Assembly (NCBI RefSeq): GCF_003628145.1
Contig: NZ_RBZV01000014.1
Span: 1 to 64,000, forward strand
Source: Trinickia fusca
GTDB lineage: Bacteria; Pseudomonadota; Gammaproteobacteria; Burkholderiales; Burkholderiaceae
Reading direction: 5' to 3'
DNA: 64,000 nt
Shown here: in pieces, positions 17,902 to 36,029 of the stretch
How positions within the stretch are numbered: the stretch's first letter is position 1
How the letters are laid out: each line of letters opens with the position of its first letter
Notes under the pieces: generated by a model
What the model was told of the DNA's origin: nothing
The model's database searches: none
Seen by the model: the letters and a program-made list of their open reading frames with translations, nothing else
Position numbers and translations under genes: made by a program

Positions 17902-18576
17902 ATGAATGAAGTGTATCGAGGTGCGGCGGGCCTGCAACAGCTTGGCTGGTTCGCGCAAGTCAAGCAGTGCGTGAGCTGGTTGCGCGGAAATCTGCTTGGC
18001 AGCGAGCGCGACCGATTGCTCGATCGCATTCGCTATCTGGAATCCGAGGTGTCGCGTTGGTCGAAGCTCGCGATTACCGATGAGCTCACGGGCGCGTTCA
18101 ATCGTCGGCATATCGACGACGTGTTCAAGGAACACCTTTTGCTGCAACGCTGCAGCGAATCGCTCGCCTTCTGTCTGTTTGACGTCGACAATTTCAAGGC
18201 CTACAACGATTCGTACGGACATGGTGCCGGCGACGAAGCGTTGCGGCTCGTCGCGCAGACGGTGCGCAGCAAGTTGCGTCACGCGTGCGACAGCCTGTTC
18301 CGCCTCGGCGGCGATGAGTTCTGCATCCTGCTGTGCGCGCCGTCGCCGACGGAAGCCTTGCATGTGGTCGAGCGTCTTCGGCTGGCGGTGCGCGAGCTCG
18401 CCTTGCCGCATCCGTTTGACCGCAACCAGGTGCTGACGGCGAGTTTCGGGCTGGTCTGGCGTTGCGACCGCAGTCCGCTGAGGCTCGTGCCGCGCGAACT
18501 CTATCTGAATGCCGACCGGATGCTGTACGACGCCAAGCGCGCGGGCCGCGATCAGGTCAAGCTGGCCGTGCTGTAA
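17902..18576 (+). CDS. Diguanylate cyclase (GGDEF), first gene of the exopolysaccharide locus
   Basis: 224 residues from ATG 17902 (MNEVYRGAAG); ATG 17848 is possible but weaker. A short N-terminal region ends in a coiled coil (ERDRLLDRIRYLESEVSRWSKL) that leads into DELTGAFNRRHID. The active site is RLGGDEFCILL (GGDEF at about 136-140), with the metal-binding FDVDNFKAYND. It makes c-di-GMP from two GTP in the cytoplasm. Five residues before GGDEF the I-site RxxD reads HACD, so Arg is missing and product inhibition is probably lost. It lies 42 bp before wecB and upstream of nfrB, whose MshEN domains are the likely local c-di-GMP target. Confidence 0.9.
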   Translation: MNEVYRGAAGLQQLGWFAQVKQCVSWLRGNLLGSERDRLLDRIRYLESEVSRWSKLAITDELTGAFNRRHIDDVFKEHLLLQRCSESLAFCLFDVDNFKAYNDSYGHGAGDEALRLVAQTVRSKLRHACDSLFRLGGDEFCILLCAPSPTEALHVVERLRLAVRELALPHPFDRNQVLTASFGLVWRCDRSPLRLVPRELYLNADRMLYDAKRAGRDQVKLAVL

Positions 18577-18618
18577 CACGGCGTTCGACGTAAGAACAAA
18601 AAATAGACGGGGTGATGA

Positions 18619-19797
18619 ATGACGTTGAGGATCATGTCGGTGTTCGGCACGCGGCCGGAGGCCATCAAGATGGCGCCGGTCGTCAAGCAGCTCGAAGCGG
18701 CGCCGGGAATCGAGTCGATCGTATGCGTGAGCGGTCAGCATCGCTCGATGCTCACGCAGGTACTGGATCTGTTCGGTATCGATCCGCACCACGATCTCGA
18801 CTTGATGACGAACGACCAAACGCTGAACGGCTTCTCGTCGCGGCTGTTCGCCGCGCTCGACGACGTGCTGGCGCGCGAGCAGCCCGACCGCGTGCTCGTG
18901 CACGGCGATACCACGACGGCTTCGATGGCCGCGCTGGCCGCCTTTCACCGCCGTATCCCGGTCGGCCACGTCGAAGCGGGGCTGCGCACGGGCGACTTGA
19001 GCCGGCCGTGGCCTGAGGAAATGAATCGGCGCGTCGTCGATGTCGTCAGCGATTTGCTGTTTGCGCCGACGGCCAGCGCGAAAGCCAATCTGCTGGCGGA
19101 GTCGCTGCAAGGGCGCGCGATCGTGACCGGCAACACCGTCATCGACGCGCTGTACTTGATCACCGACCGTATCGATCGCGATCCCCTGCTCCGCGCCGAA
19201 CTCGATCGTGCGCTGCCGTTTCTCGACGACGTCAAGCCGCTCTTGCTGGTGACCGGTCATCGGCGCGAGAGCTTCGGCGCCGGATTTGCCGCGATCTGCG
19301 AGGCGCTGGCCGAGATCGCGCGTACCGAAGCGGTCCAGATCGTCTACCCGGTGCATCTGAATCCGAATGTGCGTGGCCCTGTCCACGGGGTGCTCGGCGG
19401 GGTACCCGACGTTCACTTGATCGAGCCGCTCGACTATCTTGGATTCGTGCGGCTCATGCAACGCGCGGCCATTGTGCTGACCGATTCGGGCGGTGTGCAG
19501 GAGGAGGCGCCGGCGCTCGGCAAGCCGGTGCTGGTGATGCGCGAGGTGACCGAGCGGCCCGAGGCGCTGGCCGCAGGCGGCGTCAAGCTCGTCGGCACGC
19601 GGCGCGAATCGCTGGTCGGGGCGACGCGCGAGCTGCTCGAGCACATTCGTGCCGGTGGGGCTACGGCTGGGCGCATGTCGCCATACGGCGATGGGCTCGC
19701 GTCGGCGCGCATCGTCGCAGCCGTCGCCGGGCAGCCGTTCGCCGAATTCGAGCCGGGCGCCGTGGTGCGTGCCGCCAGCGCGGGGCAGCCGACTTAG
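18619..19797 (+). CDS. wecB: UDP-N-acetylglucosamine 2-epimerase (non-hydrolysing)
   Basis: 392 residues, the usual length. Diagnostic stretches are [18 protein letters not shown] at the start, [93 protein letters not shown], and [22 protein letters not shown]. It interconverts UDP-GlcNAc and UDP-ManNAc in the cytoplasm. No wecC (UDP-ManNAc dehydrogenase) or other antigen genes are nearby; the neighbours are NfrB/NfrA-type. In the E. coli NGR pathway WecB also feeds NfrB, so UDP-ManNAc is the likely donor for this locus. Confidence 0.95.
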   Translation: [392 protein letters not shown]

Positions 19798-19945
19798 CGA
19801 CGCGCCTCGCTTACCTGTCGCGGGCCGGCCGTTTGGCTCGCGATACGCCCCGCTCGAGCAGGGCGCTCCCGGCGCCGCATGACAGTCCGCTGTCGGCACG
19901 ACTTTTGCCCATTTCGATTCAGTTTCCGACAAGAGAAAACTCTCT

Positions 19946-22159
19946 GTGACTCACGACACTTTTCTGCACCGCCGCGCGCGCATCCGTTTCGCGACACTGG
20001 CGCTGGCCACCGCGCTGCTTTCGACCGGTGCCGCCGCATGGGCCGCCCCGAGCGGCATTGCCGCCGCTTTGGCTCAGCTCGGCGAAGGCCGCACCGTCGC
20101 GCGCACCGTCTCGTTTGCGGACCTCGGCATTCGTGAGCCGCTCGTGATGCCGGCGCCCGACACACGCCAGGAGCTTTATCTGCCTGTGCCCGTCGGGGTG
20201 CCGCTCACCGATGCGACACTGCAAGTCGACGGCGGCTATCTGCACGCGGACGGCGGACGCACCTCGATGCTGCTGTCGCTCGACGGCTCGCCGGTGCTGG
20301 CACGCAGCTTTCCGCAGCAGCAGGGCGATGCCGGCGTGAGCATCGGTGTGGATGGTGCGCCGCGCGACAGCGGGTTCGTGCGCGTGGGGCTGCAATGGTC
20401 GTCGGTGATCGATGAACGGATCTGTACGGATCAGACCGCGATTGGCAACGTGCTGCGTGTCGCGCCGACCTCCCGTCTGACATATCGCTTCGATCCGGCC
20501 GCGATTCGCGACCTTCGCACGGCGTGGAGCGCGCTGCCGATCGCGCCTGTCGTCGCGCTGTCGGGGCGCCATGTCGGTGCCGGCGCTTACGACGCCGGCT
20601 GGCGCGTGGCGACGCAGCTCGAGCGCGAAAACCGCAAGCCCGTGACACGTACATGGCCGGCGGCCGGCGACACGGTCGATCTGTCGGGCGTGGATGTGCC
20701 CGCCGCGTTGCGTGCGGTGCCCGCATTCGCTTCGCTGACGGCCGGGGGCGCCCACAAGCTCAACGATGCGGCCGAGGTTGGGGCACTGATCGTGCTCGCG
20801 CCACGTACGGCATTTGCACCCGACATCGTCATTGCCGACGACGCGCTGCGCCGCGACACGAACGCCGCGCTCGACGCGCTGCGCGCGCAGATCGCCTCTG
20901 CATCGCCCGATGGGGCCGCCGCGTTCGACGCCTGGCGTGCCCGTTCGCTTGCGGCGCTGGTGCAGCCGCTCGCAGCCGGGGAAGTGCGCCTCGCACGCCT
21001 GAACGGTCAGACGGCGATCGTCGTCGGCGACGAGGTTGGCGTGGCCGCGCTCGCGCGTGCATGGCGGCCCATCGACGTGGCCGACCGCATCGTCGTGCAT
21101 CGACTCGATGCGACGCCCTATGCGCACGCGGACAGCATCGCACTTGCGGCGCTAGGCGGCGAGCCGCGCACGCTCGACGTGCTGGGCCGCGCGAGTTGGG
21201 ACGCGAGTTTCGATCTCGGTGCTGTGGGCGGCGACGGCAAGCTGCCCGCCACAGTCCTGCTCGACGTATCCTCCGCGCCGACACCGCAAGCGCAGGGCGA
21301 GATCGCCTCGGTCTATTTCAACGACGTGCTGATCGCATCTGAGCTGCTGCATCAGGACGGCAAACCGCAACGCATTACCGCTCACGTGCCGCGCTACGCG
21401 CTCGCGCCGACGAACCTGCTGCGCGTCGTATTCCAGCGCCGCCCCGACGGCGGCTGCCAGGCGCGTCCGCAAGGCTACCCGGTGGCCGTGCTGCCGACGA
21501 GCCGGCTGCTGCTCGAAACCGCGGGCGACAGCGACGATTTCACGGGCATGGTCGCGCGCTTCGCGTCGGCCGCGAACGTGATCGTGCCCGCGGCCTATCT
21601 CGACGATGCGACGGCGACGCTGCCGCGCCTCGCGGCGCTGGCACATGTAGCAGGCGTCGCACCGACCAGTGCGACGCTGACGGTGGCGGGTGCTGCGCCC
21701 GTCGTGCCGAAGGGGCCGTTCCTGGCCGCCGACGTCCTGCTCAACAACGAAAAGGGCCGCGCGCAACTGTCGAACGACCGCATGACGCTGACCGACCAGT
21801 CGAATCGCGTATTCGCCGATGTGTCGGGCTTGAGCCGGCTCGCTGTCATCGAGGTGGCCGAGGCGGGCGGCACGAAGGGCGTCGCCTATCGCACGCTGGG
21901 TGGCGAAGCCCCGCACTTGCCCGCGACGCTGCGGCTGTCGCGGGGCGACATCGCGCTCGTCTCCGACAGCAGCACGGCGACCGTCTTCGATTCGCGTCAT
22001 CCCGGCCAGGTCGTGACCGACGACGATGCCGGCATCGACCGGATCGGGCGTTGGCTGCCGTGGCTCATCGCGGCCGTGCTCATTGCGCTGCTGATCGCGT
22101 TGATACTGGGCGCCGGCGTGGCACGACGCCGTCATCAGGATCGACAGGACGAGTCGTGA
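19946..22159 (+). CDS. BcsB-like periplasmic exopolysaccharide protein
   Basis: 737 residues starting at GTG 19946. A signal sequence (ATLALATALLSTGAAAWA) is followed by a long periplasmic part with BcsB-like alternation of carbohydrate-binding-type and flavodoxin-like domains (FVRVGLQWSSVIDERICTDQ; SPVVA-type loop IAPVVALSGRH; VSSAPTPQAQGEIASVYFNDVLIASELL). It closes with one C-terminal membrane helix (about 708-728, WLIAAVLIALLIALILGAGV) and a basic tail. BcsB-type subunits clamp a synthase and guide the nascent glycan through the periplasm. The stop overlaps the nfrB start (GTGA). It occupies the place of ybcH in the E. coli nfr cluster but is a different protein family. Confidence 0.78.
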   Translation: MTHDTFLHRRARIRFATLALATALLSTGAAAWAAPSGIAAALAQLGEGRTVARTVSFADLGIREPLVMPAPDTRQELYLPVPVGVPLTDATLQVDGGYLHADGGRTSMLLSLDGSPVLARSFPQQQGDAGVSIGVDGAPRDSGFVRVGLQWSSVIDERICTDQTAIGNVLRVAPTSRLTYRFDPAAIRDLRTAWSALPIAPVVALSGRHVGAGAYDAGWRVATQLERENRKPVTRTWPAAGDTVDLSGVDVPAALRAVPAFASLTAGGAHKLNDAAEVGALIVLAPRTAFAPDIVIADDALRRDTNAALDALRAQIASASPDGAAAFDAWRARSLAALVQPLAAGEVRLARLNGQTAIVVGDEVGVAALARAWRPIDVADRIVVHRLDATPYAHADSIALAALGGEPRTLDVLGRASWDASFDLGAVGGDGKLPATVLLDVSSAPTPQAQGEIASVYFNDVLIASELLHQDGKPQRITAHVPRYALAPTNLLRVVFQRRPDGGCQARPQGYPVAVLPTSRLLLETAGDSDDFTGMVARFASAANVIVPAAYLDDATATLPRLAALAHVAGVAPTSATLTVAGAAPVVPKGPFLAADVLLNNEKGRAQLSNDRMTLTDQSNRVFADVSGLSRLAVIEVAEAGGTKGVAYRTLGGEAPHLPATLRLSRGDIALVSDSSTATVFDSRHPGQVVTDDDAGIDRIGRWLPWLIAAVLIALLIALILGAGVARRRHQDRQDES

Positions 22160-24339
22160 ACTGGACGACTTTCGAGTGGTACGCCAAGTACGCCGTCGTT
22201 CACTACTACGGCGTACTGGAGATCGTCGCAGCGATCGTGGCGTGCATCATCCTGGCATCGAGCCTCGACGATCTGTTCATCGACTTGTGGTTCTGGGTGC
22301 GCGAGACCTATCGCCATTTCACGGTCAAGCGTCAGCACAAGTCGCTCACGAGCGAGCAGTTGTACGCACGCGACGAGCAGCCGATCGCGATCATGGTGCC
22401 GGCCTGGCACGAGTACGACGTGATCGCCGCGATGATCCAGGACATGGTGCGCGTGCTCGATTACCGCAACTACGTCGTGTTCGTCGGCACCTACCCGAAC
22501 GACACGCAGACGATCACCGAAGTCGAGCGCATGCGTCGCCGCTATCGGCAGTTGAAGCGCGTGGAGGTGCCGCACGACGGGCCCACATGCAAGGCCGACT
22601 GCCTCAATTGGGTGATCCAGGCGATCTTCAAGCACGAGCGCGAAGCGGGGTTCGAATTTGCCGGCGTCGTGCTGCATGACAGCGAGGACGTATTGCATCC
22701 GGCCGAGCTCAAGTTCTTCAACTATCTGTTGCCACGCAAGGACATGATCCAGCTGCCCGTCACGTCGCTCGAGCGTCATTGGTTCGAACTCGTCGCGGGG
22801 ACGTACATGGACGAATTCGCCGAGTGGCATGCGAAGGATCTCGTCGTGCGCGAGAGCCTGGCCGGCGCGGTGCCATCGGCCGGTGTCGGCACGTGTTTTT
22901 CGCGTCGTGCGCTGTTGGAATTGATGGCTCAGACCGACAATCAGCCGTTCAACACCGAAAGCCTGACCGAGGATTACGACGTCGGCGCGCGGCTGGCCAA
23001 GCTCGGCATGCAGTCGATCTTCGCGCGCTTTCCGGTGCAGTTCTCGACGCACCGCAAGTCGTGGTTCGGACTCGGGCCCATGCGCGAGTTCACGCTGAAT
23101 ATGCCGCTGTGCGTGCGCGAGTTCTTCCCCGACACGTTTCGCACGGCCTATCGGCAGCGCGCCCGCTGGACGCTCGGCATCGGCCTGCAAGGCTGGCGCC
23201 AGACGGGCTGGACCGGTTCGCTCGCCAATCGCTATCTGCTGGCGAGGGACCGCAAGGGCATCATCACGGCGTTCGTCGGCATCCTTGCTTATGTGCTCGT
23301 CGCGCAGTTCCTGTTGTATGCGCTGGCCGACGTGCTGGGCTGGCTGCCGCGGCTCGTCGTCTCGTCGCTGGCCGACGCCCCATGGCTGCGCACGCTACTA
23401 TGGCTCAACGGAGGCGCGTTCTTGCTGCGCATCGTGCAGCGCGTCTATTTCGTCACGCGACTGTACGGCTGGGAGCACGGCGTGTTGTCGGTCCCGCGCA
23501 TGGTGATCGGCAACTTCCTCAACTTCATGGCCGTGGCACGCGCATGGCGGCTGTTCATCGTGCATCTCGTGACGGGCAAACGGCTCGCCTGGGACAAGAC
23601 GATGCACGATTTCCCGTCGGCCGACGGCTTGGCCGACCGACGCCAGCGGCTCGGCGAACTGCTCGTGTCGTGGCAGGCCATCGATGCATCGCAGCTCGAG
23701 CACGCGCTCGGCGAGGAGCATGCGCGCGAAGCGCCGCTCGGGCGGGTACTGATGGCCAAGGGCTGGCTCGACGAAGAGACGCTGGCCGAAGCGATTGCGT
23801 TCCAGTCCGATCTCGAACGCGGCACGTTCGATGACGAGGCGCTCGAGTGCCATGCCGCGCGCTTGCCGCTCGAGATGATCGTGCGCCATCGCGTGCTGCC
23901 GCAAGGCGACGACGCGGCCGGGCAAGCGCTCCTGCTGACGGCGAGTCCGCTCGGCGAAGCGACGCTCGAAGAGCTCGAGGCGCAGCTGGGCCAAGGCATC
24001 GTGCAGCGGATCGTGCGCGAGAGCGAGATCGCTGCGGGGCTGCGGCACCTGCGCGGCGTGACCGCGACCGTTGCCGCGGCGGATCGTGATCCGGCCGGGC
24101 CGGGCTCGGCCGCAACCGACGGTGGCAACACGCGCGGCGTCCCGCTGATCGGCGATTTGCTCATCGAGCACGGCTACGTCAAGCGCCAGGCCTTCGATGC
24201 GGCGCTGGCCGGCTACCGGCCCGACTTGCACGGCCGGATCGGCGATTACATGGTCGCGCGCGGCGTGATCTCGAGCGAGGCGTTGGAGGCGGTGATCGTC
24301 GAACAACGCAAGCTCGCCGGCGAGCAGGAGGCCGCATGA
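22156..24339 (+). CDS. nfrB: NfrB-like GT2 polysaccharide synthase with C-terminal MshEN c-di-GMP-binding domains
   Basis: 727 residues from GTG 22156, overlapping the previous stop by four bases. An N-terminal membrane helix (IVAAIVACIILASSL) precedes the GT-A domain: MVPAWHEYDVI, VGTYPNDTQT, HDSEDVLHP (DxD-like, near 174-177), TEDYDVGARL (near 270) and the processive-synthase QRARW (333-337). More membrane helices follow (FVGILAYVLVAQFLLYAL). Two MshEN domains lie at about 495-560 (RLGELLVSWQAI ... LGRVLMAKGWL) and 661-725 (IGDLLIEHGYV ... IGDYMVARGVI), the long Leu/Gly repeat that binds c-di-GMP. Known E. coli NfrB makes the N4 receptor glycan under c-di-GMP control; I infer the same chemistry here. 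Confidence 0.92.
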   Translation: MNWTTFEWYAKYAVVHYYGVLEIVAAIVACIILASSLDDLFIDLWFWVRETYRHFTVKRQHKSLTSEQLYARDEQPIAIMVPAWHEYDVIAAMIQDMVRVLDYRNYVVFVGTYPNDTQTITEVERMRRRYRQLKRVEVPHDGPTCKADCLNWVIQAIFKHEREAGFEFAGVVLHDSEDVLHPAELKFFNYLLPRKDMIQLPVTSLERHWFELVAGTYMDEFAEWHAKDLVVRESLAGAVPSAGVGTCFSRRALLELMAQTDNQPFNTESLTEDYDVGARLAKLGMQSIFARFPVQFSTHRKSWFGLGPMREFTLNMPLCVREFFPDTFRTAYRQRARWTLGIGLQGWRQTGWTGSLANRYLLARDRKGIITAFVGILAYVLVAQFLLYALADVLGWLPRLVVSSLADAPWLRTLLWLNGGAFLLRIVQRVYFVTRLYGWEHGVLSVPRMVIGNFLNFMAVARAWRLFIVHLVTGKRLAWDKTMHDFPSADGLADRRQRLGELLVSWQAIDASQLEHALGEEHAREAPLGRVLMAKGWLDEETLAEAIAFQSDLERGTFDDEALECHAARLPLEMIVRHRVLPQGDDAAGQALLLTASPLGEATLEELEAQLGQGIVQRIVRESEIAAGLRHLRGVTATVAAADRDPAGPGSAATDGGNTRGVPLIGDLLIEHGYVKRQAFDAALAGYRPDLHGRIGDYMVARGVISSEALEAVIVEQRKLAGEQEAA

Positions 24340-26918
24340 CGGACGCTCGTTCGATCGCGCGTCACACGATGACGCGCAAGTGGCGTGCGTGTGTGCTGGC
24401 CTGCGCAATCGGTTCGATGGGCGCGGGCTGGGCCGGCTACGCGACGGCAGAGGTGGCCCGGTTGGACCGGCCGTTCAAGCTCGACGCCGCGACATTCGCG
24501 CATGCTGAGCCGTTGCCGCTCGCCGGCGCCGCCTATCGCGTCGCACAGCAAGCCTACGCGGCCTATGACCGGCACGACTACCCGAAGGCCATCACGTTTG
24601 CACGCGAAGCGATCCGGCAGCGCCCCGACGTGCCCGCGCTGCGCGTGCTGCTGGCCAACGCGCTGGCCGCGCGCCGACAGTACGCGCAGGCAAGCCGTTC
24701 GCTCGGCGCGGCGATTCACGTGCTGGGTCCGCGCCGGACACTCGTGGCGCGGCGTGCGCAGATCGACGCGCTCGCGCAATCGGTCGCGCAGGTCGCGCGT
24801 GATCGCCGTGCTGCGGCAGCCGACGGCGACGCTTTGACGGGGGACGCTTTCACGGCCGCGCAAAACGCTTACCGCGCGTATGCGGACAAGCGCTTTGCCG
24901 ACACCGTGCGCTACAGCGAGCAGGCAATCGCGCTGCGCCCCGACGTGTTACGTCTGCGACTGTTGCTCGTCGATGCGGCCAGCGCGGCCGGTCAGGATAC
25001 GCGGGCATGGCAGGCCGACCTCGATGCCGTCGCGCGCTTCGGCGACAGCGAGCCGCTGCGGCTGCGACGTGTGTTCATCGGCAACGGGCTCGCGCCGCAG
25101 GCTGCGCGGGCGGGGTTGTCCGCGCGCGAGGCCGGCGATCTGCCGGGCGCGGTCGCACACTTGCACGATGCCATCGCCTACGCGCCGGACAACATCGACT
25201 ACCGCGTCGCGCTGTTCGATGCATTGCTCGCGTCTAACGACCTGGCGGGTGTCGAAGCGGCAGCCGGTGAGGCGATCGCGTATGACAGCACCGAGATCAT
25301 GCCGTTCGTGTTCCAGGCTTACGCGCAGGCTGCGCAAGGGCGCTTCGATGCGGCCGATGCCGCCCTCGATCGCGCCTTGCATGACGACGACGCGACGCGC
25401 GAAGATCTGCGCATCGCGGCGGCGATCGCGGCCGATATCTGGATCGAAGAGGGGCGTGGCGAACGCGTGAAGCGCGCGCTGGGTTCGCTCGCCTCGCTCG
25501 GCGACGACACCACCGATGCGCTGATCACGCAACGCCTTTACTCAGCCCAAGCACGGATGCGAGCCATCACCGCTAGCCAGGCAAGTGCGCCAGGCGCATC
25601 GCCCGATGATGGACGGTCCCGCGAGCAGCATATCGGGCAGCATGCACGGCCCATCGTCGATTGCATCACGGACGAGTTCGGCGCGAGCTGCGAGGTGTCC
25701 CCTGCCGATGCCGGCTTTGCGTCGGCCCGTGCCGCCGCGCGCGCCGCGGAGCGGGGGAACAAGGAGGCCGCCGTACGCCTGGCGCGTGAGGCCGTCGCAT
25801 TGGCGCCCGACCAAGCCCAGCATCGCGTCGAGCTCATCAACGTGCTCGACAACGCGGGCGCATCGAGCGAAGCGCAGGACGAGGCGCGCGCCGTCGTGCG
25901 GGACGGCTTGCTGGCCGCCTTGCCGCCGATGCAGGCGGCCTACATCGCCCAGCAAGCCGGTGCGAGCGACGTGGCGCTGCGCGAATTCAAGCGCGCCGAT
26001 GCGAGTGGCAAGTTGACGGCTGGCGTGCTCGCCGATGCGGGTTTTGCGGCAACCGCCGCGCACAGCGATGCCGATGCGGTGCGCTACTTCGAACGCGCGC
26101 TCGACGCGAGCTCGGCATCCACGCGCCGCACCGACGCAAGCCTCACCCCGCAACAGCTCGACGACATCCGGGGCGCCCACTCAGAAGCGACGCGCAAGTG
26201 GGGCTTCGAGGCTTCGCTCGACTATCGCGGCGCCGGGATGCAACCGGGCTTCGGCTCGACGCCGTCGCCAGGGATTGCAAATAATTGGCAGGCCGGCCTC
26301 GAAGCGTACTGGCGTCCGTTCGGCAGCCTCGGCGAGCGCATGTTCGAGCTCTACGCGCGCGGCTACGAAAGCTTTGGCGTGAAGGACAGTGGCGCCAGTG
26401 GTGCGAACTCGATCGAGGCGGCGCTCGGGGCGCGCGCAAAGCCGTTCGCGAAGCTCGACGCCATCGTCGCGTTCGAGCATATTTTCGCGCTCGGTTCGCG
26501 GGCGCAAAGCGACTGGCTCGCACGACTGGCCTATTCGGGCGGCATCGGCACCGAGCGCCGCACCGACGTGCCGGCCTGGTGGACCACGGAGGTCTACGCC
26601 GAAACGGGGCATTACCTCCAGCGCGGCTCGACGTACGCGACGGCGAACGTCAAGGCGGGCCGCACTTACCGGATGGACCGCGTAAGCCCGCGCTGGACCG
26701 TCTTCCCGTACGCCGTGGCTGGTGCCGACTATGACTCGAGTATCAATGGCAGTGTGCCGGTCGGCGCGGGCATCGGCGTGTCCACACGCTACGCGTTCCG
26801 CGACAGCCCATACGACACGCTGCGCTCGTATGTCGATCTGTCGCTGCAGTACCGGCTCAAAGTTGCTGGCGACGATCGCGCCCGCGGCGTGTTTTTCGAT
26901 GCAGTGTTTTCTTACTGA
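24336..26918 (+). CDS. nfrA: NfrA-like TPR/outer-membrane polysaccharide export protein
   Basis: 860 residues, ATGA overlap with nfrB. A signal peptide is seen near 20-39 (VCVLACAIG...AGYATA). The middle is a chain of TPR-like repeats (AYAAYDRHDYPKAITFAREAIRQRPD; AYRAYADKRFADTVRYSEQAIALRPD). The C-terminal about 240 residues match the NfrA C-terminal domain (FEASLDYRGAGMQPG, AGLEAYWRPFG, TEVYAETGHYLQ, TVFPYAVAGADYD) and end in aromatic Tyr (FFDAVFSY), as outer-membrane beta proteins do. In E. coli NfrA is the phage N4 outer-membrane receptor that holds the NGR glycan. Here it would export or anchor the polymer, and could serve as a phage receptor. Confidence 0.88.
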   Translation: MTDARSIARHTMTRKWRACVLACAIGSMGAGWAGYATAEVARLDRPFKLDAATFAHAEPLPLAGAAYRVAQQAYAAYDRHDYPKAITFAREAIRQRPDVPALRVLLANALAARRQYAQASRSLGAAIHVLGPRRTLVARRAQIDALAQSVAQVARDRRAAAADGDALTGDAFTAAQNAYRAYADKRFADTVRYSEQAIALRPDVLRLRLLLVDAASAAGQDTRAWQADLDAVARFGDSEPLRLRRVFIGNGLAPQAARAGLSAREAGDLPGAVAHLHDAIAYAPDNIDYRVALFDALLASNDLAGVEAAAGEAIAYDSTEIMPFVFQAYAQAAQGRFDAADAALDRALHDDDATREDLRIAAAIAADIWIEEGRGERVKRALGSLASLGDDTTDALITQRLYSAQARMRAITASQASAPGASPDDGRSREQHIGQHARPIVDCITDEFGASCEVSPADAGFASARAAARAAERGNKEAAVRLAREAVALAPDQAQHRVELINVLDNAGASSEAQDEARAVVRDGLLAALPPMQAAYIAQQAGASDVALREFKRADASGKLTAGVLADAGFAATAAHSDADAVRYFERALDASSASTRRTDASLTPQQLDDIRGAHSEATRKWGFEASLDYRGAGMQPGFGSTPSPGIANNWQAGLEAYWRPFGSLGERMFELYARGYESFGVKDSGASGANSIEAALGARAKPFAKLDAIVAFEHIFALGSRAQSDWLARLAYSGGIGTERRTDVPAWWTTEVYAETGHYLQRGSTYATANVKAGRTYRMDRVSPRWTVFPYAVAGADYDSSINGSVPVGAGIGVSTRYAFRDSPYDTLRSYVDLSLQYRLKVAGDDRARGVFFDAVFSY

Positions 26919-26926
26919 CAAGAGAG

Positions 26927-27670: not shown

Positions 27671-27736
27671 CTGGACCCGCCGGCCCCCAAGGCCGGAACA
27701 CGGCGCGCCGAATTCCTCGGGGAGGCGCGCTAGTCG

Positions 27737-28810
27737 ATGACTCAAACAAAAACGACAACAATGACCAACTCGTTTCTTACGCAGACCTGTATCGATGCAG
27801 CTTCGCCTGACACCAAGCGGCGGCGATTCCTTATGGCACTGGCCGCCATCCCGCTGGCGGGCGCGATCTCGTTGCCGCGCACCGCGCGTGCGGCAGCAGC
27901 CGGTGCCGTACCGAAGACCGCTGGCGCCACGGCCCTTATCGAGGGCCGCGATCGGTGGCTGTTTCCCGGTTGGGAAAGCCTCACGGAGGACAGCACCGCG
28001 GCCTGTCTGAACGTCGTCGATCTGATCGGGCGCGTGGCCAACAAGATGGCGGCCCGCTCGATTCATTGCGCAGTCGTCATCGCGCCGCTGAAAGCCCGCG
28101 CGTGCGCCGACAAGCTGGCCGAAGGCACCACGCTCTCCACGGCCGTGGCGGGTCGCTATAGCGCGCTCGTTGCCCGTGCCAAGGCGATCGGGCTCGACCT
28201 CGTCGACGGCGAAGCGGCGCTTGCCCGCGTCGATACGCAGGAAGACGCCACCTACATCCGCGCCGACTACCACTGGTCGGCACACACGGCCGAAGCCCAG
28301 GCCGACGCCACGGCGGAACGGCTCATCGCGAGCGGTGCGTTGCATGGCGAGAAGGGCGGTGCAACGAAGCTCGGCGATTGGACCGAAGAGCGCAATTACG
28401 GCGATCTGGCCGAACTGCTGCCACCCGAGCGCAAGCGCGTGATCGGCAAGGACCGCTTCATCGTCCGGCAGACCGACTCCGACGGCGATGCGCTGACGGC
28501 GGCGACGCCCGTCGTGCAGGTCGTCGGCAATAGCATGGTGCAGCCGTATCTGGGTTTTCCGCAGAAGCTCTCGAACGCGCTCGAGCGCCCCGTCGGGCTC
28601 AAGTGGACGTTCGGCGACGTCGGCCCGTGGAAGACACTGCTCGATTACCTCGAGTCGCCCGCGTTCAAGGCCACGCCGCCGCAGGCGATCGTCTGGCAGT
28701 TCAACGAAGGGCAGATGATGTCGGGCCCCGGCGCGGTCGGCCAATGGGATGTCGCTTCCGTGATGGCCGACGACGCTTGGCTCGCGCGCGTGACGAAGGC
28801 GCTCGGCTGA
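27737..28810 (+). CDS. AlgJ/AlgX-like SGNH acyltransferase (Tat-type signal)
   Basis: 357 residues; GGAGG eleven bases before ATG 27737 (ATG 27761 is an alternative). The N-terminus has twin arginines before a hydrophobic stretch (KRRRFLMALAAIPLAGA), suggesting Tat export. AlgJ/AlgX features: IEGRDRWLFPGWESL near the mature start, ADYHWSAHTAEAQ (Asp about 176, His about 178) and the nucleophile strand VQVVGNSMVQPY (Ser about 266). In alginate and cellulose systems these enzymes move acetyl groups onto the polymer in the periplasm. Here the acyl group may be an amino acid, given the DltA/DltC genes downstream. The stop overlaps the next start (ATGA). Confidence 0.8.
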   Translation: MTQTKTTTMTNSFLTQTCIDAASPDTKRRRFLMALAAIPLAGAISLPRTARAAAAGAVPKTAGATALIEGRDRWLFPGWESLTEDSTAACLNVVDLIGRVANKMAARSIHCAVVIAPLKARACADKLAEGTTLSTAVAGRYSALVARAKAIGLDLVDGEAALARVDTQEDATYIRADYHWSAHTAEAQADATAERLIASGALHGEKGGATKLGDWTEERNYGDLAELLPPERKRVIGKDRFIVRQTDSDGDALTAATPVVQVVGNSMVQPYLGFPQKLSNALERPVGLKWTFGDVGPWKTLLDYLESPAFKATPPQAIVWQFNEGQMMSGPGAVGQWDVASVMADDAWLARVTKALG

Positions 28811-30066
28811 TGAACACGCGTGTCGAATCGGTTGCCGCGGCCAGCGAGCCAGCGGCACGAGCGGTGCGTCCGCCCGGCGACGGCGAAGGGCCGGCGCTCG
28901 ACCGCGCGCATCGATGCATGGCGGCTATTGCAACAGCGCTGCTGGCGGCCGGGTTCGTGCTGGCAGTTACGTCGCTTATCGGGCGCTCGAACGGGAACGG
29001 CCTCGGGGTGCGTGCCGGGCTCGCCTCGCCCAGTGCGAACAGGGTGAGCGGTGCGAATGATACGAACCAGGGGAGCCTCGGTCAGCGTATCGATCGCGCC
29101 ATCGATGTGCCTTATGCGCCGCTCGTGCGGCGTGCAAAGGCTGCGCTGCGCTACCGCGTGTTCGGCGACTTGGGCGCGCAGGTTCGGGAAGGCTGCCCGG
29201 GTTGGTTGTTCTACGAGGACGGGCTGCATCCTGCGCAATCCACGAGTGCCGTCGACGCGGCGATGACGGCGCGTATCGCCACGCTCGAGCGCTACGCCAC
29301 GGCGCTGCGCCGCGACGGCATCGCGCTCGTCGTCGTCACCGTCCCCGACAAGGCGCGCATCGAAACCGATGCCCTGTGCGGGTTGCACCAAGACGCTGGC
29401 ATGACGCAGCGTCTCATCCAATGGCAGCGCGCGCTCGCGCAAGCGGGCGTCGTGCACGTCGATCTCGTTCAGACGTTGCGTGCCGCACGGCCGGCGTTCT
29501 ATCGCACCGACGTGCACTGGAACGCACGCGGCGCGCAAGCGGCGGCGCAGGCGGTCGGCGCCACCGTGTTGCCGCTCATGGGTGGGCGTGGCGCGCTGAG
29601 CTTCGCGACCGAGCGTGCCAGTGCGCCGGCGCCGCGCGTCGGCGATCTGTTGAAGCTCGCCGGCCTGGACGAAGTGCCCGACGGCTGGCGGCCGGCACCC
29701 GATGTCGACGTTTCCGAAACGCTGCGCGCGCAACACACAGGCGGCTTGCTCGACGATGCGCCGCCAGCCGAGGTGCTGCTGGCGGGCAGTTCGTTCTCGC
29801 GCCGCAGCGCGTTCGCCGAGCGGCTTGGGCAAACGCTGGGCCGCGACGTATGGAACGTGAGCGTCGACGACGGCCGTTTCGACCGTGCGCTGGCGGCCGT
29901 GTGGGCACGCCGCGCGAGTTGGCCCGCGAGCGTACGCGTCGTGATCTGGGAGATGTCGGAGGACGCGCTATCCGAAGCTCAGGCTCCCGCGCAAACGCCG
30001 CCCGCGGCACAGACCGAGGGCAAGGGTAGGGGTGACCAAGGGGGCGGACACAGCCATGCTGTTTAA
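28810..30066 (+). CDS. Second AlgJ-like SGNH acyltransferase, membrane-anchored
   Basis: 418 residues from ATG 28810. About 35 cytoplasmic residues precede one membrane helix (AAIATALLAAGFVLAVTSLIG), so unlike its neighbour it is an inner-membrane-anchored periplasmic enzyme, the topology of AlgJ and DltD. Motifs: CPGWLFYEDGLHP, VVVTVPDKARIETDALC, TDVHWNARGAQ (Asp about 234, His about 236) and LLAGSSFSRRS (Ser about 327). Two non-identical SGNH proteins in one locus suggests a relay, with one receiving acyl groups from the MBOAT protein and the other loading the glycan, as proposed for AlgJ and AlgX. It overlaps the MBOAT start. Confidence 0.8.
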   Translation: MNTRVESVAAASEPAARAVRPPGDGEGPALDRAHRCMAAIATALLAAGFVLAVTSLIGRSNGNGLGVRAGLASPSANRVSGANDTNQGSLGQRIDRAIDVPYAPLVRRAKAALRYRVFGDLGAQVREGCPGWLFYEDGLHPAQSTSAVDAAMTARIATLERYATALRRDGIALVVVTVPDKARIETDALCGLHQDAGMTQRLIQWQRALAQAGVVHVDLVQTLRAARPAFYRTDVHWNARGAQAAAQAVGATVLPLMGGRGALSFATERASAPAPRVGDLLKLAGLDEVPDGWRPAPDVDVSETLRAQHTGGLLDDAPPAEVLLAGSSFSRRSAFAERLGQTLGRDVWNVSVDDGRFDRALAAVWARRASWPASVRVVIWEMSEDALSEAQAPAQTPPAAQTEGKGRGDQGGGHSHAV

Positions 30067-31687
30067 CTCGTTTATTTTCCTGACGTTGTTTCTGCCCGTT
30101 GCGCTGGTGGGCTACTACGCGCTCGGTGCGCGTTCGCCGCGCCTGGCGGCCACCTGGCTGTGCGTCGCGTCGGTCGTTTTCTATGGCGCGTGGAATCCGT
30201 CGTTCGTCGTGCTGCTCGCACTGTCGATTGCGTTCAACTACGCGATGAGCCGCGCGATCATGGCCTGCGCGCCGCGCTCCCGGGGCCGCCGCGCGTGGCT
30301 CACCGTCGCGATCGCCATCGATATCGGCGTACTCGTGCGCTACAAGTACCTCGCGACGATGGCTGCCGCGTTGCTGCCGCTTGCGGGCTCGACGCCGCCG
30401 ACATGGCTCGTGCACAGCATGGAGACGGTCGCTTTGCCGCTCGGCGTCTCGTTCTTCACATTCACGCAGATCGGCTATCTGCTCGACTGCCACGCCGGCA
30501 TCGTCAAGCAGCGCGACTTGCTCGGCTTCGTGCAGTTCGTCACGTTCTTCCCGCATCTGATCGCGGGACCGATCCTGCATCACAAGGAGATGATGAGCCA
30601 GTTCGCGCAGCCGCAGACGTATCGCTTGCGCGCCGAGAATCTGTCGATCGGCATGACGGTGTTCGCGATCGGTCTCGCGAAGAAATGCCTGTTCGCCGAC
30701 GCGATCGCGCCGTATGCCGATGCGGGCTTCGCGGCGCCGGACGGCTTGCAGACCCTCGCGGCATGGGGGACGTGTCTGGCCTATGCGCTGCAGCTCTATT
30801 TCGATTTCTCGGGCTACTCGGACATGGCCGTCGGCCTCGCGAAGATGTTTGGCGTGCGCTTCCCGCTGAACTTCAATTCGCCGTTCAAGGCAGCCAGCAT
30901 CATCGACTTCTGGCAGCGCTGGCACATGACGCTCACCCGTTATCTGAGCGCCTATCTGTACTACCCGCTCGCGATGCGGATCAACCGTCGGCGGGCCGCA
31001 CGAGGCAAGTCGACGGGCCGTCTGGCGCAGCACTCGGCGGGCGGCTTCGCCATGACCGTGATGCTGCCTACGTTCTACACGATGGGGCTCGCCGGCATTT
31101 GGCATGGCGCCGGCTTGCAGTACCTGATCTACGGCTTGTTGCATGCAGCGTATCTGAGCATCAACCATGCGTGGCGCGCCTGGCGCGGCGACGGGCCATC
31201 CAAGCCCGGTGCGAAGCAGGCGCCGGCCACACCGATCGCGCGAGCCGGTGCGCGTCTGCGTCACGTGTCGAGCGTGCTGCTGACGTTCCTCGCAGCCCTC
31301 GTCGCCTTCGTGTTCTTCCGCGCGCATGGCGTGGCCGATGCGCTCGCGATGCTGCAAGGCATGGCCGGCATGCGCGGCATCGAGGCCCTGCCGTGGCCAT
31401 CGCGCGCCGATGCGCACATCGACATGCTCGAGTGGCTGCGCCTTGCGGTGGGCCGCTCGATGCCGGCGCTCAGCATCGCCGCGCTGCTCGCTGTCGCCTG
31501 GTTCGCCCCGAACTCGCACCAGCTGATGGGCCGCTTCTCGCCCGCGCTCGAACGTGCCGCGCTGGACGCCCCCGCCGTGCTGGCCTGGCGGCCGTCATGG
31601 CGCTGGAGCGTGGCGACGCTCGGCTTGCTGCTGCTGTGTGCGGCCGAGCTGCACGGCGAAGTGCGGTTTCTCTATTTTCAGTTTTGA
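30056..31687 (+). CDS. MBOAT-family membrane O-acyltransferase (AlgI/DltB type)
   Basis: 543 residues from ATG 30056, giving the classic AlgI start MLFNSFIFLTLFLPV; an in-frame GTG at 30032 is possible. About eleven membrane helices. Family signatures: WNPSFVVLLALSIAFNYAMSR, LPLGVSFFTFTQIGYLLDCH, FPHLIAGPILHHKEMM, YFDFSGYSDMAVGLAKMFG, FPLNFNSPFKA, DFWQRWHMTLTRYLSAYLYYPL and the catalytic-His segment LAGIWHGAGLQYLIYG (His near 348). MBOAT proteins pass an acyl group from a cytoplasmic carrier across the membrane to an extracytoplasmic acceptor. With the ACP and ligase genes immediately downstream, the carrier is likely aminoacyl-ACP (DltB-like use) rather than acetyl-CoA. Confidence 0.9.
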   Translation: MLFNSFIFLTLFLPVALVGYYALGARSPRLAATWLCVASVVFYGAWNPSFVVLLALSIAFNYAMSRAIMACAPRSRGRRAWLTVAIAIDIGVLVRYKYLATMAAALLPLAGSTPPTWLVHSMETVALPLGVSFFTFTQIGYLLDCHAGIVKQRDLLGFVQFVTFFPHLIAGPILHHKEMMSQFAQPQTYRLRAENLSIGMTVFAIGLAKKCLFADAIAPYADAGFAAPDGLQTLAAWGTCLAYALQLYFDFSGYSDMAVGLAKMFGVRFPLNFNSPFKAASIIDFWQRWHMTLTRYLSAYLYYPLAMRINRRRAARGKSTGRLAQHSAGGFAMTVMLPTFYTMGLAGIWHGAGLQYLIYGLLHAAYLSINHAWRAWRGDGPSKPGAKQAPATPIARAGARLRHVSSVLLTFLAALVAFVFFRAHGVADALAMLQGMAGMRGIEALPWPSRADAHIDMLEWLRLAVGRSMPALSIAALLAVAWFAPNSHQLMGRFSPALERAALDAPAVLAWRPSWRWSVATLGLLLLCAAELHGEVRFLYFQF

Positions 31688-31702
31688 CTAGGAGCTTGCC
31701 AA

Positions 31703-31939
31703 GTGACTTCCCCCACCCAGTTGTTCGATGACGTGAAGGAGCTCGTCGAATCGGTCGTCATGCGTGCCGTCGACGGCGATACGCTGCTCATCGAGGATGG
31801 CCTCGTCGATTCCGTGCTGGCCGTCGAAATCGTGCTGCGCGCGGAGATGCTGTTCGGTGTATCCGTGCCGCCGACCGAGATCGCCGAGCACTTGCACAGC
31901 GTCGATGCGCTGACCGCGTATATCGCGGCCAATCGATAG
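31703..31939 (+). CDS. dltC: DltC-like acyl/aminoacyl carrier protein
   Basis: 78 residues, the size of DltC, starting at GTG 31703 behind TAGGAG. Four-helix carrier with the phosphopantetheine site IEDGLVDSVLAVEIVL (Ser37 in DSV; DltC has DSF, ordinary ACPs DSL). The helix 3 region reads VSVPPTEIAEHLHSVDALTAYI. It would carry a thioester-linked amino acid made by the adjacent ligase and present it to the MBOAT protein. Gene order MBOAT-carrier-ligase with 9-15 bp gaps supports this rather than a role in fatty-acid or polyketide synthesis. Confidence 0.85.
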   Translation: MTSPTQLFDDVKELVESVVMRAVDGDTLLIEDGLVDSVLAVEIVLRAEMLFGVSVPPTEIAEHLHSVDALTAYIAANR

Positions 31940-31948
31940 GCGGCTCGC

Positions 31949-33454
31949 ATGCGCTTCGATCTGATGACGAGCCGCTTCGTCGAGCAAACGATCCGCCCTG
32001 ACGCGCCCGCCGTGGTCGGCGCCGACCGCGCGTTGAGTTGGCGCGAGTTGGAAGCCGAGGCGGCCGCTTGGTGCGACCTCGCGCAAGCGGCTGGCTTCGC
32101 GGCCGATCTTCCCGTCATCGTGCGGGGCCATAAGGAAGCCAGCTTCTTCGTGGCGATGGCCGGCGCGTTGATGCTCGGCGCCCCGTTCGTGCCGCTCGAC
32201 ACGATCTACCCCGATGCGCGCATGCAGGCGATCGCGCGGACCTTGGAGGCGCGTGTGTACTTCGATGCGCGCACGGGCAGCTTCGAGCCGGTGCCGCAGG
32301 CCGATATCCCCGACACGGGCACGCAAGCTACGCCGGCGCGTGCATTGCGCGAAACGGGGCTCGCCTACGTCCTGTTCACGTCGGGCACGACCGGCGAACC
32401 CAAGGGCGTGCAGATCGGCCGCGAGAGCGTGCAGGCGCTCGTCGAATGGATGGAGGCCGACTTCGCGCTCGGCGCGGCGCCCGTGTTCCTCAATCAGGCA
32501 CCGTTCAGTTTCGATCTGGCGATGTACGAAGTGTTCGGCTCGCTCGCGCTCGGTGGGACCGCCGTACTCAGTTCGCGCGCGGCCAGTGTGCCGGGGCCGG
32601 ACTTCGTCGAACGGCTCGCGACGCAGGGTGTCGACACGTGGGTGTCGACGCCGTCGTTCGCGCAGCAGCACTTGCTCGACCCGCGTTTCGCACAGACGTC
32701 GCTGCCATCGATGAAGACCTTTCTGTTCTGCGGCGAGGCACTGCCTGTCGCGCTCGCACGGCGCCTTCGCGAGCGCTTTCCGGCCGCGCGCATCGTCAAC
32801 ACGTACGGTCCGACCGAAGCGACGGTCGCGACGACTTGGATCGTCGTCGATGACGCAGTGTTGGCGGCGCACCCCGAACGCTTGCCGATCGGGCGTGCCA
32901 AGCGCGGCGCCGAGGTGTTCGTCGACGAGGGCGAGCTGTGCGTGGCAGGCGCACACGTGATGCGCGGGTATCTGAACCGCAGCGATCTCAACGCGACACG
33001 GCTTTTCAACCGCGACGGCTTGCGCGGCTTTCGGACGGGCGACGTCGGCAGCATCGACCCCGATGGCCTGTTGTTTTGCCACGGACGCATCGACGACCAG
33101 ATCAAGGTCGGCGGCTATCGGATCGAGCTCGCGGAGATCGATTCGGCACTGGCCGTGCTGCCCGGCGGACCGCGCGCGGCGGCTGTCGCGCTGCGCCGGC
33201 CAGACGGCTCGGTCGCCCGCATCGTCGCCTTCGTCGAAACGGGGGCTGACGATGCACGGCCGGGGCAACTGCCGGTGCCGTCCGACTGGAAGCAGCAGCT
33301 TGCCGGCCGACTGCCGTCGTACATGATTCCGTCGGAGCTGATCGCTTGCCGACGACTGCCGGTATCGATCAACTTCAAAGTCGATCGAGCACGGCTTGCA
33401 GAGGATTATCGCCATGCCCATTTCGATTCGCGCGGCAGCAAGCCGGGCCGCTGA
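31949..33454 (+). CDS. dltA: DltA-like D-alanine--carrier protein ligase (adenylation enzyme)
   Basis: 501 residues, close to DltA (about 504). Adenylate-forming motifs: YVLFTSGTTGEPKGV (140-154), NTYGPTEATVA (284-294), YRTGD-type FRTGDVG (361-367), GRIDDQIKVGGYRIE (379-393) and C-terminal Lys in NFKVDRARL. DltA-specific wording is strong: VFLNQAPFSFDLAMYEVFG, DTWVSTPSFAQQHLLDP and TFLFCGEALPV. Cys261 in FCGE corresponds, as I recall, to the Bacillus cereus DltA Cys that favours D- over L-alanine. It activates the amino acid with ATP and loads the carrier encoded just upstream. No alanine racemase is in the window. It overlaps the next gene. Confidence 0.88.
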   Translation: MRFDLMTSRFVEQTIRPDAPAVVGADRALSWRELEAEAAAWCDLAQAAGFAADLPVIVRGHKEASFFVAMAGALMLGAPFVPLDTIYPDARMQAIARTLEARVYFDARTGSFEPVPQADIPDTGTQATPARALRETGLAYVLFTSGTTGEPKGVQIGRESVQALVEWMEADFALGAAPVFLNQAPFSFDLAMYEVFGSLALGGTAVLSSRAASVPGPDFVERLATQGVDTWVSTPSFAQQHLLDPRFAQTSLPSMKTFLFCGEALPVALARRLRERFPAARIVNTYGPTEATVATTWIVVDDAVLAAHPERLPIGRAKRGAEVFVDEGELCVAGAHVMRGYLNRSDLNATRLFNRDGLRGFRTGDVGSIDPDGLLFCHGRIDDQIKVGGYRIELAEIDSALAVLPGGPRAAAVALRRPDGSVARIVAFVETGADDARPGQLPVPSDWKQQLAGRLPSYMIPSELIACRRLPVSINFKVDRARLAEDYRHAHFDSRGSKPGR

Positions 33455-34340
33455 CGCATGGCGTCGCGCGACGCCGTGCCGTTTGCCTCGAGCGCTCGGG
33501 CGTATGCTCGGGGTGGCCGCATGCGTGTGCGCGGCCACCGGCTGTGCGAGCTCGCAAGCGGGCATGCCGGCATCGCTGGCGCAAGGGATCGTCTGGCAGC
33601 CCGACGAAGACCACATGAATACGCGCGGGGAGTGGGACAAGCTCGGCGTGCGCGATCTGCTCGTGCAATGGACGGCTGTCGACGGCGAATCGATGGTGCG
33701 CGGCGCCGGCTTGCCGACCTCGGCAGGCGTGCCCGACTGGGTGCGCATCGCACGCGAGCCGTGGGCGCGCAACGTCATCGTGGGCCTGGCCGGTCGCTTC
33801 GACGAAACCGAGGCACGCGCGCAGGCCGCCCAACTCGTCGAGCAATCGAAGCGGCTCATCGCGGCACGCCCACCGGTGCACATCGACGGCTGGTATTTCC
33901 CTGTCGAAGTCGATCCGACCTGGAAGGACGCCGCCTCGCTGGCGCCATTGCTGGAGAAGTTGCCGCGGCCGCTCTGGATCAGCGTCTACGACAACTCGAA
34001 CATCGGCGGCGCCGCGCTCGCAGCGTGGCTCGACAGCTGGCTACCGCGCGATGTCGGCGTCTTCTTTCAGGACGGCTGTGGTGACTACGCACGCAGCGCG
34101 CCCGTAGCGCGCGCCTATGCCGACGAGTTGGCGGCCCGGCTCGGCAAGCGCCGCGTGCGCATCATCGCCGAAGCGTTTCGCGGCTTGCCTGGCGGGGGAT
34201 ATCGTTCCGCCGAGGCGGATGAACTGGCGCCGCAGCTCGCGCAATATCGCGGCTATCCGACGTATCTCTTCGACGGGCCGCATTATGTGCCGCCGTCGCT
34301 CGTGCGTGCGCTGCTAGCCCGCGAGGCAGCGCAAAAGTGA
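33414..34340 (+). CDS. DUF4434-like (glycoside-hydrolase-fold) lipoprotein
   Basis: 308 residues from ATG 33414, chosen for AGAGGA seven bases upstream; the start lies inside the end of the ligase gene. A lipoprotein signal (MLGVAACVCAATGC) anchors it to a membrane, probably the outer one (Ala-Ser follow Cys). The rest resembles a TIM-barrel-like domain: GIVWQPDEDH, DLLVQWTAVDG, IVGLAGRFDE, HIDGWYFPVEVDPTWKD, LWISVYDNS, VGVFFQDGCGDYA, RIIAEAFRGLPGG. DUF4434 proteins of this pattern are predicted glycosidases of exopolysaccharide loci. It may trim or release the polymer. No catalytic pair can be proven by eye. Confidence 0.65.
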   Translation: MPISIRAAASRAADAWRRATPCRLPRALGRMLGVAACVCAATGCASSQAGMPASLAQGIVWQPDEDHMNTRGEWDKLGVRDLLVQWTAVDGESMVRGAGLPTSAGVPDWVRIAREPWARNVIVGLAGRFDETEARAQAAQLVEQSKRLIAARPPVHIDGWYFPVEVDPTWKDAASLAPLLEKLPRPLWISVYDNSNIGGAALAAWLDSWLPRDVGVFFQDGCGDYARSAPVARAYADELAARLGKRRVRIIAEAFRGLPGGGYRSAEADELAPQLAQYRGYPTYLFDGPHYVPPSLVRALLAREAAQK

Positions 34341-36019: not shown

Positions 36020-36029
36020 GCCTACTGAC

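Follow-up and report, generated by a model that had tools for sequence, protein, structure and literature searches.

An Nfr exopolysaccharide locus of Trinickia fusca with a candidate carrier-fed acyltransferase of the alginate lineage and exchangeable donor modules

A locus of twelve genes in Trinickia fusca, located at positions 17902 to 34340 (+ strand) of a 64,000-nucleotide stretch of contig NZ_RBZV01000014.1 (the window), probably encodes an exopolysaccharide machine of the NfrB/NfrA type under c-di-GMP control. Its polymer would be aminoacylated on its way out of the cell by a membrane-bound O-acyltransferase (MBOAT) of the AlgI lineage that is fed by a carrier protein. The novel part would be the conversion of an alginate-lineage MBOAT to a carrier-protein donor with an exchangeable donor module: either FkbH or one of two pocket types of DltA. 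Beyond this locus, we lean slightly towards the view that there is a whole class of alginate-lineage MBOATs that use a dedicated carrier instead of acyl-coenzyme A (acyl-CoA) and a fused tyrosine, that are marked by the loss of a segment with an Arg-Asp (R-D) pair and a GGNR motif, and whose donor modules are interchangeable, with FkbH providing glyceryl groups and DltA-type ligases providing D-alanine, or a different amino acid where the pocket is altered. If such a class exists, sister species could attach different groups, even cationic ones, to one c-di-GMP-controlled Nfr polymer.

The central protein is the MBOAT encoded at 30056..31687 (+; PF03062, E-value 5.9e-25). In the tree, nfr-type MBOATs, FkbH-linked MBOATs (including that of locus L191) and the MBOAT of locus L204 fall into a single clade within the AlgI radiation (support 97/99, 22 rows), in which the FkbH-linked proteins branch first; DltB stands apart (100/100), and the MBOAT of locus L219 falls elsewhere on a long branch. 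AlgI-lineage MBOATs are held to use acyl-CoA. At its C-terminus the window protein carries the motif FLYFQF, as do the MBOATs of 12/12 acylated loci, and among the matches listed the motif was present in 8/8 nfr loci versus 0/55 frame-checked MBOATs of other ligase loci. PatA carries a C-terminal FXYXXF motif that acts as an acyl-tyrosine shuttle (PMC12148441); in Dlt systems the same motif resides on a separate microprotein, DltX. A short DltB is preceded by a frame with YEYQQF or FQYQQF at its end in L087, L104 and L186, three Gram-negative dlt loci; this frame has 42 residues in L087 and is longer, as listed, in the other two.

The periplasmic partners are of the alginate kind as well. Two SGNH acyltransferases, one with a twin-arginine-like signal (27737..28810, +; ALGX, 1e-52; AlgJ structure 4o8v, 4.4e-16) and one with an N-terminal membrane anchor (28810..30066, +; ALGX, 4.1e-63; 4o8v, 2.4e-18), match ALGX/AlgJ and not DltD, and the D-x-H motif and serine of both are kept in 13/13 aligned rows. 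The AlgF-like periplasmic protein (26927..27670, +; AlgF, 5.5e-8) scores 32.9 bits, just below the gathering cut-off of 34.4. The window MBOAT reaches only 183 of the 375 bits required by TIGR04091 for the DltB type, and no DltD-, DltB- or DltX-type gene was present among the operon genes that could be identified. The original prediction of an alginate-type module fused to a Dlt-type module is not supported as stated: the locus is no plain sum of the two, given an AlgI-lineage MBOAT with fused shuttle, an exchangeable donor module and the lack of the three Dlt genes just named.

Directly downstream lie a carrier protein and its candidate loading enzyme. The carrier (31703..31939, +; PP-binding, 9.5e-7) has its phosphopantetheine serine in GLVDSV, kept in 13/13 aligned sequences, and resembles Dlt carriers while staying below the DltC equivalog cut-off (PRK05087, 9.7e-5). 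In two related loci (L084 and L086) the carriers were under threshold in the locus search and were seen by eye, that of L086 also by Pfam (7.8e-6). The DltA-like amino-acid:carrier ligase (31949..33454, +; PRK04813, 3.1e-112) has its best PDB matches in DltA (3e7w, 3fcc) and shows the Asp and Cys of the Dlt pocket, with a Met to Tyr change and below the curated DltA cut-offs. No second ligase of this type was found in the 6.1 Mb host genome at an E-value of 1e-60; the two other matches are adenylation stretches within frames exceeding 3,500 residues. In DltA of B. cereus, Asp197 binds the amino group and Cys269 selects D- over L-alanine, as stated in the parts of the two papers available (PMC4176424, PMC8972799). 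The equivalent Asp189 is kept in 13/13 aligned ligases and the equivalent Cys262 in 9/13; in a wider set of 43 sequences, 11/20 nfr ligases have Cys and 9/20 have Gly at this position.

These pocket residues divide the nfr ligases into a window type (type I) and a second type (type II). The pocket segments of the window type are nearly those of free-standing dlt ligases of Achromobacter, and the dra locus of Bordetella incorporates D-alanine according to the text of a review. Because of the pocket residues and the comparison with Achromobacter and Bordetella, the cargo of the window type is likely D-alanine and that of the second type likely some other substrate. In line with the aminoacylation of the original prediction, the loading enzyme resembles aminoacyl ligases and has most of the residues of a D-alanine pocket. 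Ligases of the second type with a GAES pocket (Gly for Cys) occur in L045, L046, L052, L054 and L082–L086. Among free-standing dlt loci, those of Pectobacterium and Pluralibacter (L089, L090) have Ile in place of the enantioselective Cys (FIGE), and these enterobacterial loci may therefore load something other than D-alanine.

The donor module has been exchanged in nature. Among the 31 MBOATs of this type in the family, five lack DltA (L187–L191), and in each of these five an FkbH-like protein and a carrier adjoin the MBOAT, which means that the MBOAT is accompanied by a carrier whichever loading enzyme is present. The FkbH domain (TIGR01686) scores 314 bits in L187 and 327 bits in L191 at a cut-off of 147, and the other three FkbH-like proteins score above 1,200 bits against that of L187; the carrier of L187 lies above the Pfam cut-off and that of L191 slightly below it (16.7 of 20.8 bits). 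Four of the five are nfr loci, and the fifth (in genome G666) is not. We take FkbH proteins to load glyceryl groups on carriers. Since the FkbH-linked MBOATs branch first, the tree suggests that the glyceryl-carrier form arose first and the aminoacyl form later by exchange of the loading enzyme. In loci of the Pseudacidovorax type, the MBOAT groups with the second type (99/99), the ligase groups with the window type (100/99), and the genes for carrier and ligase run in the opposite direction; judged by these groupings, the donor cassette is exchanged there.

The MBOAT itself differs from AlgI in the segment between RWH and WHG. AlgI-type MBOATs read ...FLRDYLYIPLGGNR... and nfr-type MBOATs ...YLSAYLYYPLAMRINRRRAARG..., by which the R-D pair and the GGNR segment are lost. 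In the window MBOAT the remodelled cytosolic segment covers about residues 290–345. To set this loss against carrier use, we sampled 40 neighbourhoods of other MBOATs with 42 MBOATs in total (three of them from a single locus, L233). Selection was manual (39 neighbourhoods from the MBOAT list and one from a class-wide scan), many of the segments had been seen beforehand, and the glycine class of the segment was widened after inspection while the R-D class was left unchanged; the neighbourhoods span 6–14 kb, some ended by contig ends, so that distant carriers would be missed. The R-D pair is kept in 40 of the 42 MBOATs, and a carrier was found near none of these 40. The two MBOATs without the pair (L204 and L219) come from one genome. 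L204 contains FkbH (TIGR01686, 299 bits) and a carrier that is found at an E-value of 6e-9 with a profile not containing it, and at 15.3 bits by Pfam (cut-off 20.8). Counting both L204 and L219, Fisher's test gives 0.0012, whereas L204 alone amounts to 1/2 versus 0/40; one of the carrier profiles used included both outside carriers. The rule that R-D loss marks carrier use is thus backed by one sure origin and one possible origin.

The L219 cluster (G143:C75), with a fused-shuttle MBOAT lacking the R-D pair, also has an AMP-forming ligase and is possibly another, unrelated carrier-fed acylation system.

The original prediction had asked for co-occurrence of nfr and acylation genes in other genomes, and the same gene set does recur, beyond what chance would produce. 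Among 249 genomes of the family, NfrB was detected in 79 (E-value 1e-100), the nfr-type MBOAT in 31 (1e-180) and the ligase in 27 (1e-120). NfrB and MBOAT occur together in 30 of the 31 MBOAT genomes (Fisher 2.9e-16, a nominal value as the genomes are related), the sole MBOAT genome without NfrB being G666, so that the two behave as one unit. The MBOAT lies within 12 kb of nfrB on the same contig in 27/31 cases spread over several genera, and on another contig in 3/31, in assemblies of 140 to 720 contigs. In 25/31 genomes a strong DltA match is no more than 3 kb away from the MBOAT, and in G606 the two are on different contigs; the figure of 25 denotes DltA adjacency alone, carrier presence having been checked in the fetched loci. 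Among 80 ligase loci, a set that comprises the matches listed and is no census, the combination appears in at least 8, including Pseudacidovorax, Achromobacter pestifer, Cupriavidus basilensis and Stenotrophomonas. A class-wide scan at 1e-150 matched, besides the window genome, one of 369 genomes (L214, 520 bits), which as a candidate nfr-type MBOAT was dismissed because it turned out to be of the ordinary AlgI type.

Of 200 genomes sampled across the order, the window genome among them, 9 have NfrA_C; within the genus the figure is 10 of 11. Leaving the window aside, the full acylation set is present in 12 of 25 fetched NfrA neighbourhoods and absent from 13, of which eight consist of wecB-nfrB-nfrA-DUF4434 only, two of these genes plus a BcsB-like gene, and three show wecB and nfrB alone beside NfrA. 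All 25 loci (L030–L054) have a wecB match, all 12 acylated ones an AlgF-like match, and 14 a BcsB-like match (12 with and two without acylation genes). L075 and L031 are probably one genome and were counted once, and the flanks of the related loci extend little more than 1–5 kb before wecB. Exactly one acylated locus is present in 10/11 genus genomes (eight window-like and two of the second type), and the minimal wecB-nfrB-nfrA-DUF4434 arrangement forms a second locus in 8/11. The genome of the window likewise has such a minimal locus (L044, G000:C8:29500-49400), which lacks the BcsB-like and acylation genes. Two further acylated nfr loci are decaying: in L193 (G713:C108) the MBOAT frame is broken and an in-frame stop interrupts the nfrB match, and in L192 (G745:C70) the carrier and ligase remain with fragments of their neighbours.

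Three other explanations have to be weighed. The machine might perform ordinary O-acetylation from acetyl-CoA as in alginate synthesis, with ligase and carrier serving another purpose. This is close to what was suggested in 2021, when two papers named the genes O-acetyltransferases, and it fits MBOAT, SGNH and AlgF-like proteins of the alginate kind. We nevertheless regard it as unlikely: gene content, with carrier and ligase in the operon, argues against an acetyl-CoA donor without carrier, every nfr locus examined that has the MBOAT and SGNH genes also has a module for loading a carrier, FkbH and carrier stand in where DltA is missing, and the nfr MBOAT has lost the cytosolic AlgI motif that nearly all sampled MBOATs keep. 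It is improbable, too, that the acylation genes modify another envelope target, such as lipid A or another glycan, and are linked to nfr by chance or by co-regulation, given the close linkage to nfrB across several genera and the swapping of the donor module in place inside the nfr cluster. Locus L046 also speaks against it, since bcsB and nfrB are window-like there (type I-like), whereas nfrA is of type II together with the acylation genes; because of these mixed types, the exporter NfrA seems to follow the acylation genes rather than the synthase.

A harder question is the cargo. Acylation could be carrier-fed and the window cargo be glycine, L-alanine, D-serine or another small amino acid, which we consider possible, if rather doubtful. 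The Tyr in place of the pocket Met and the variable pocket of type II ligases would fit such a cargo, whereas the kept enantioselective Cys and amino-binding Asp, and the near identity of the pocket segments to those of Achromobacter together with the reviewed D-alanine of Bordetella dra, favour D-alanine.

Several observations weigh against a carrier-fed AlgI-lineage MBOAT that aminoacylates an Nfr polymer. D-alanine cannot be assumed for all nfr ligases, given those with Gly for Cys, and the Met of the Bacillus D-alanine pocket is Tyr in the window, although the free-standing dlt ligases of Achromobacter share this Tyr. Linkage and motif do not prove docking of the carrier on the MBOAT, and the AlphaFold2 model is poor (mean predicted local distance difference test, pLDDT, 54.3). 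The segment test has few origins, the nfr cases being one clade and the two outside cases one genome, and DltB, a carrier user, keeps the R-D pair (without GGNR), so that the pair alone is no mark of CoA use. The doubtful carrier of L219 lies about 5 kb from the MBOAT and looks carrier-like to the eye, but it scores 13.2 bits by Pfam (E-value 0.11, cut-off 20.8), has no PDB match and falls to chance level (E-value 0.1) with a profile not containing it. On the polymer side, the BcsB-like assignment is weak (23.6 bits, cut-off 21), and ManNAc (N-acetylmannosamine) is taken from E. coli work.

The preferred reading of a carrier-fed, aminoacylating Nfr machine can be spelled out as a pathway, in which we infer sugar, cargo, direction of transfer and contact between carrier and MBOAT from the observed genes, linkage, motifs and trees. 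WecB would supply UDP-ManNAc, as in the E. coli system. By analogy with E. coli NfrB and with the motifs observed here, binding of c-di-GMP to MshEN would turn on NfrB, which together with its BcsB-like partner would polymerize and extrude the chain. The DltA-like ligase would adenylate an amino acid, most likely D-alanine, and load it on the phosphopantetheine of the carrier, as pocket and serine indicate. The carrier, not acyl-CoA, would then feed the MBOAT, which would move the group to its own FLYFQF tyrosine and across the membrane; motif, linkage and donor swapping point to both steps. In the periplasm the two SGNH proteins, whose catalytic residues are present, would take the group from the shuttle and esterify the polymer with the help of the AlgF-like protein. 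Finally, the polymer would be exported through the TPR/barrel protein NfrA and trimmed by the DUF4434 protein.

The polymer side of the locus corresponds to the known Nfr system. The gene for wecB, the UDP-GlcNAc (UDP-N-acetylglucosamine) 2-epimerase for UDP-ManNAc supply (18619..19797, +; Epimerase_2, 7.7e-108), is followed by the BcsB-like periplasmic synthase partner (19946..22159, +; BcsB, 2e-5), whose alignment profile had no match in the PDB. NfrB (22156..24339, +; NF012033, 1083 bits) joins a GT2 polysaccharide synthase, with the active-site motifs DSED/TED/QRARW present, to a C-terminal MshEN domain (2.3e-9) that scores 80.9 bits with the c-di-GMP motif model NF053729 (cut-off 38), consistent with the c-di-GMP switch originally predicted. 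Loss of c-di-GMP control in type II NfrB was considered and ruled out, as the first MshEN motif pair is kept and only a further C-terminal stretch is missing. NfrA (24336..26918, +) has the TPR (TPR_19) and outer-membrane barrel (NfrA_C, 7.9e-48) of the exporter in NGR-type systems. Two papers on E. coli describe an nfrBA-ybcH operon whose NfrB binds c-di-GMP; from the requirement for WecB, the authors proposed a ManNAc polymer (PMC8669469, PMC8669472). By analogy, the Nfr polymer of the window probably contains ManNAc.

At the other end, a YbcH/DUF4434-like lipoprotein (33414..34340, +; PRK09936, 1.2e-12), a TIM barrel resembling glycoside hydrolases, completes the linkage with WecB, though its match lies below the curated cut-off. 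Its alignment profile gave only two chance-level matches in the PDB. The AlphaFold2 model (pLDDT 90.5) resembles the alpha-L-fucosidase-like structure 4h41 (Foldseek E-value 1.3e-6; template modelling (TM) score 0.60) and, less closely, the PgaB hydrolase domain 4p7q (8.6e-4; TM 0.47), resemblances that point to a glycosidase with a trimming role and not just to a scaffold. DUF4434 is counted among the glycoside hydrolase barrels.

The first gene, a diguanylate cyclase (17902..18576, +; GGDEF, 4.4e-34, GGDEF motif intact), is the upstream neighbour of wecB and a possible local source of c-di-GMP. It had been predicted as part of the operon; the gene is there, but it is not conserved in that place. 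A tblastn search (E-value ≤ 1e-8) of 37 related loci, 25 of which cover the stretch before wecB, yielded two matches at 31–32% in one locus (L050) and no GGDEF gene before wecB in the acylated loci searched, which rules out a conserved cyclase at this position. Elsewhere, L192 and L196 have a GGDEF gene beyond the DUF4434 end, on the strand opposite DUF4434 and at 37% to the window cyclase, and some nfr loci such as these may have their own cyclase.

Parts of the arrangement have been described before. Like the E. coli nfrBA-ybcH/NGR system, as presented in the available sections of PMC8669469 and PMC8669472, the window has NfrB with GT2 and MshEN, NfrA, YbcH as third gene, WecB and c-di-GMP control, whereas the E. 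coli operon of nfrB, nfrA and ybcH is without the BcsB-like, SGNH, MBOAT, carrier and ligase genes. The Nfr glycan of E. coli is the receptor of phage N4, and its structure is left open in the paper, as far as its available sections go. With alginate AlgIJFX the window shares an AlgI-lineage MBOAT with fused shuttle, an AlgJ/AlgX-like SGNH pair and an AlgF-like protein, but it adds carrier and ligase and loses the R-D and GGNR segment. With Dlt (dltXABCD) and Gram-negative dlt/dra systems it shares a DltA-like ligase, a carrier protein and an MBOAT-SGNH relay, but the shuttle is fused to an AlgI-type MBOAT and the target is not teichoic acid. Peptidoglycan O-acetylation by PatA/PatB likewise uses an FXYXXF tyrosine shuttle at the MBOAT C-terminus and an SGNH acceptor (PMC12148441, available sections); PatA takes acyl-CoA, whereas the window MBOAT sits with a carrier.

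The claim that no described system combines these parts holds in part. According to a 2021 study, Achromobacter xylosoxidans has nfrA, nfrB and wecB together with homologues of BcsB and of O-acetyltransferases (mBio 2021, PMC8669472), and the nfr cluster of Simplicispira suum holds alginate-acetyltransferase-like genes (PMC8669469). These clusters are probably the same kind of locus, which is present in our Achromobacter loci L082 and L085; unlike the window, they are described in terms of acetylation, and the available sections mention neither ligase nor carrier. Among the matches listed by a literature search that covers few subscription journals, no paper connects a system of this kind with a Dlt or FkbH donor.

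If the proposed pathway is correct, the locus predicts a definite decoration, namely D-alanine in ester linkage or, for the FkbH variant, glycerate. Alanyl esters carry positive charge, and the product would be a cationic exopolysaccharide under c-di-GMP control. PMC12148441 states that, Dlt aside, MBOAT/SGNH pathways have no carrier protein, which the pathway proposed here would contradict. Other carrier-fed MBOATs can be sought by the loss of the R-D/GGNR segment as a sequence mark, and natural donor swaps on the same synthase are a ready means to study the choice of cargo.

In the flanks of the locus, an OmpR-type response regulator lies upstream on the − strand (16697-17467), and a FecR/LysM protein and a CHASE2 histidine kinase lie downstream (34568-38462); none of the three had a match at the acylated loci searched, whose flanks are short. 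Within the locus, all twelve genes were found as predicted, on one strand, in the predicted order and with short gaps or overlaps. Taking the start codons that we chose, on which all spacing figures depend, 42 bp separate the GGDEF gene from wecB and 148 bp wecB from bcsB. From bcsB onward every gap is at most 66 bp, six of nine junctions overlap or are shorter than 9 bp, and all frames are intact: bcsB/nfrB and nfrB/nfrA overlap by 4 bp each, the two SGNH genes by 1 bp, the second SGNH gene and the MBOAT gene by 11 bp and dltA/DUF4434 by 41 bp, with gaps of 8 bp (nfrA-algF), 66 bp (algF to the first SGNH gene), 15 bp (MBOAT-carrier) and 9 bp (carrier-dltA). The start codon of nfrB is GTG.

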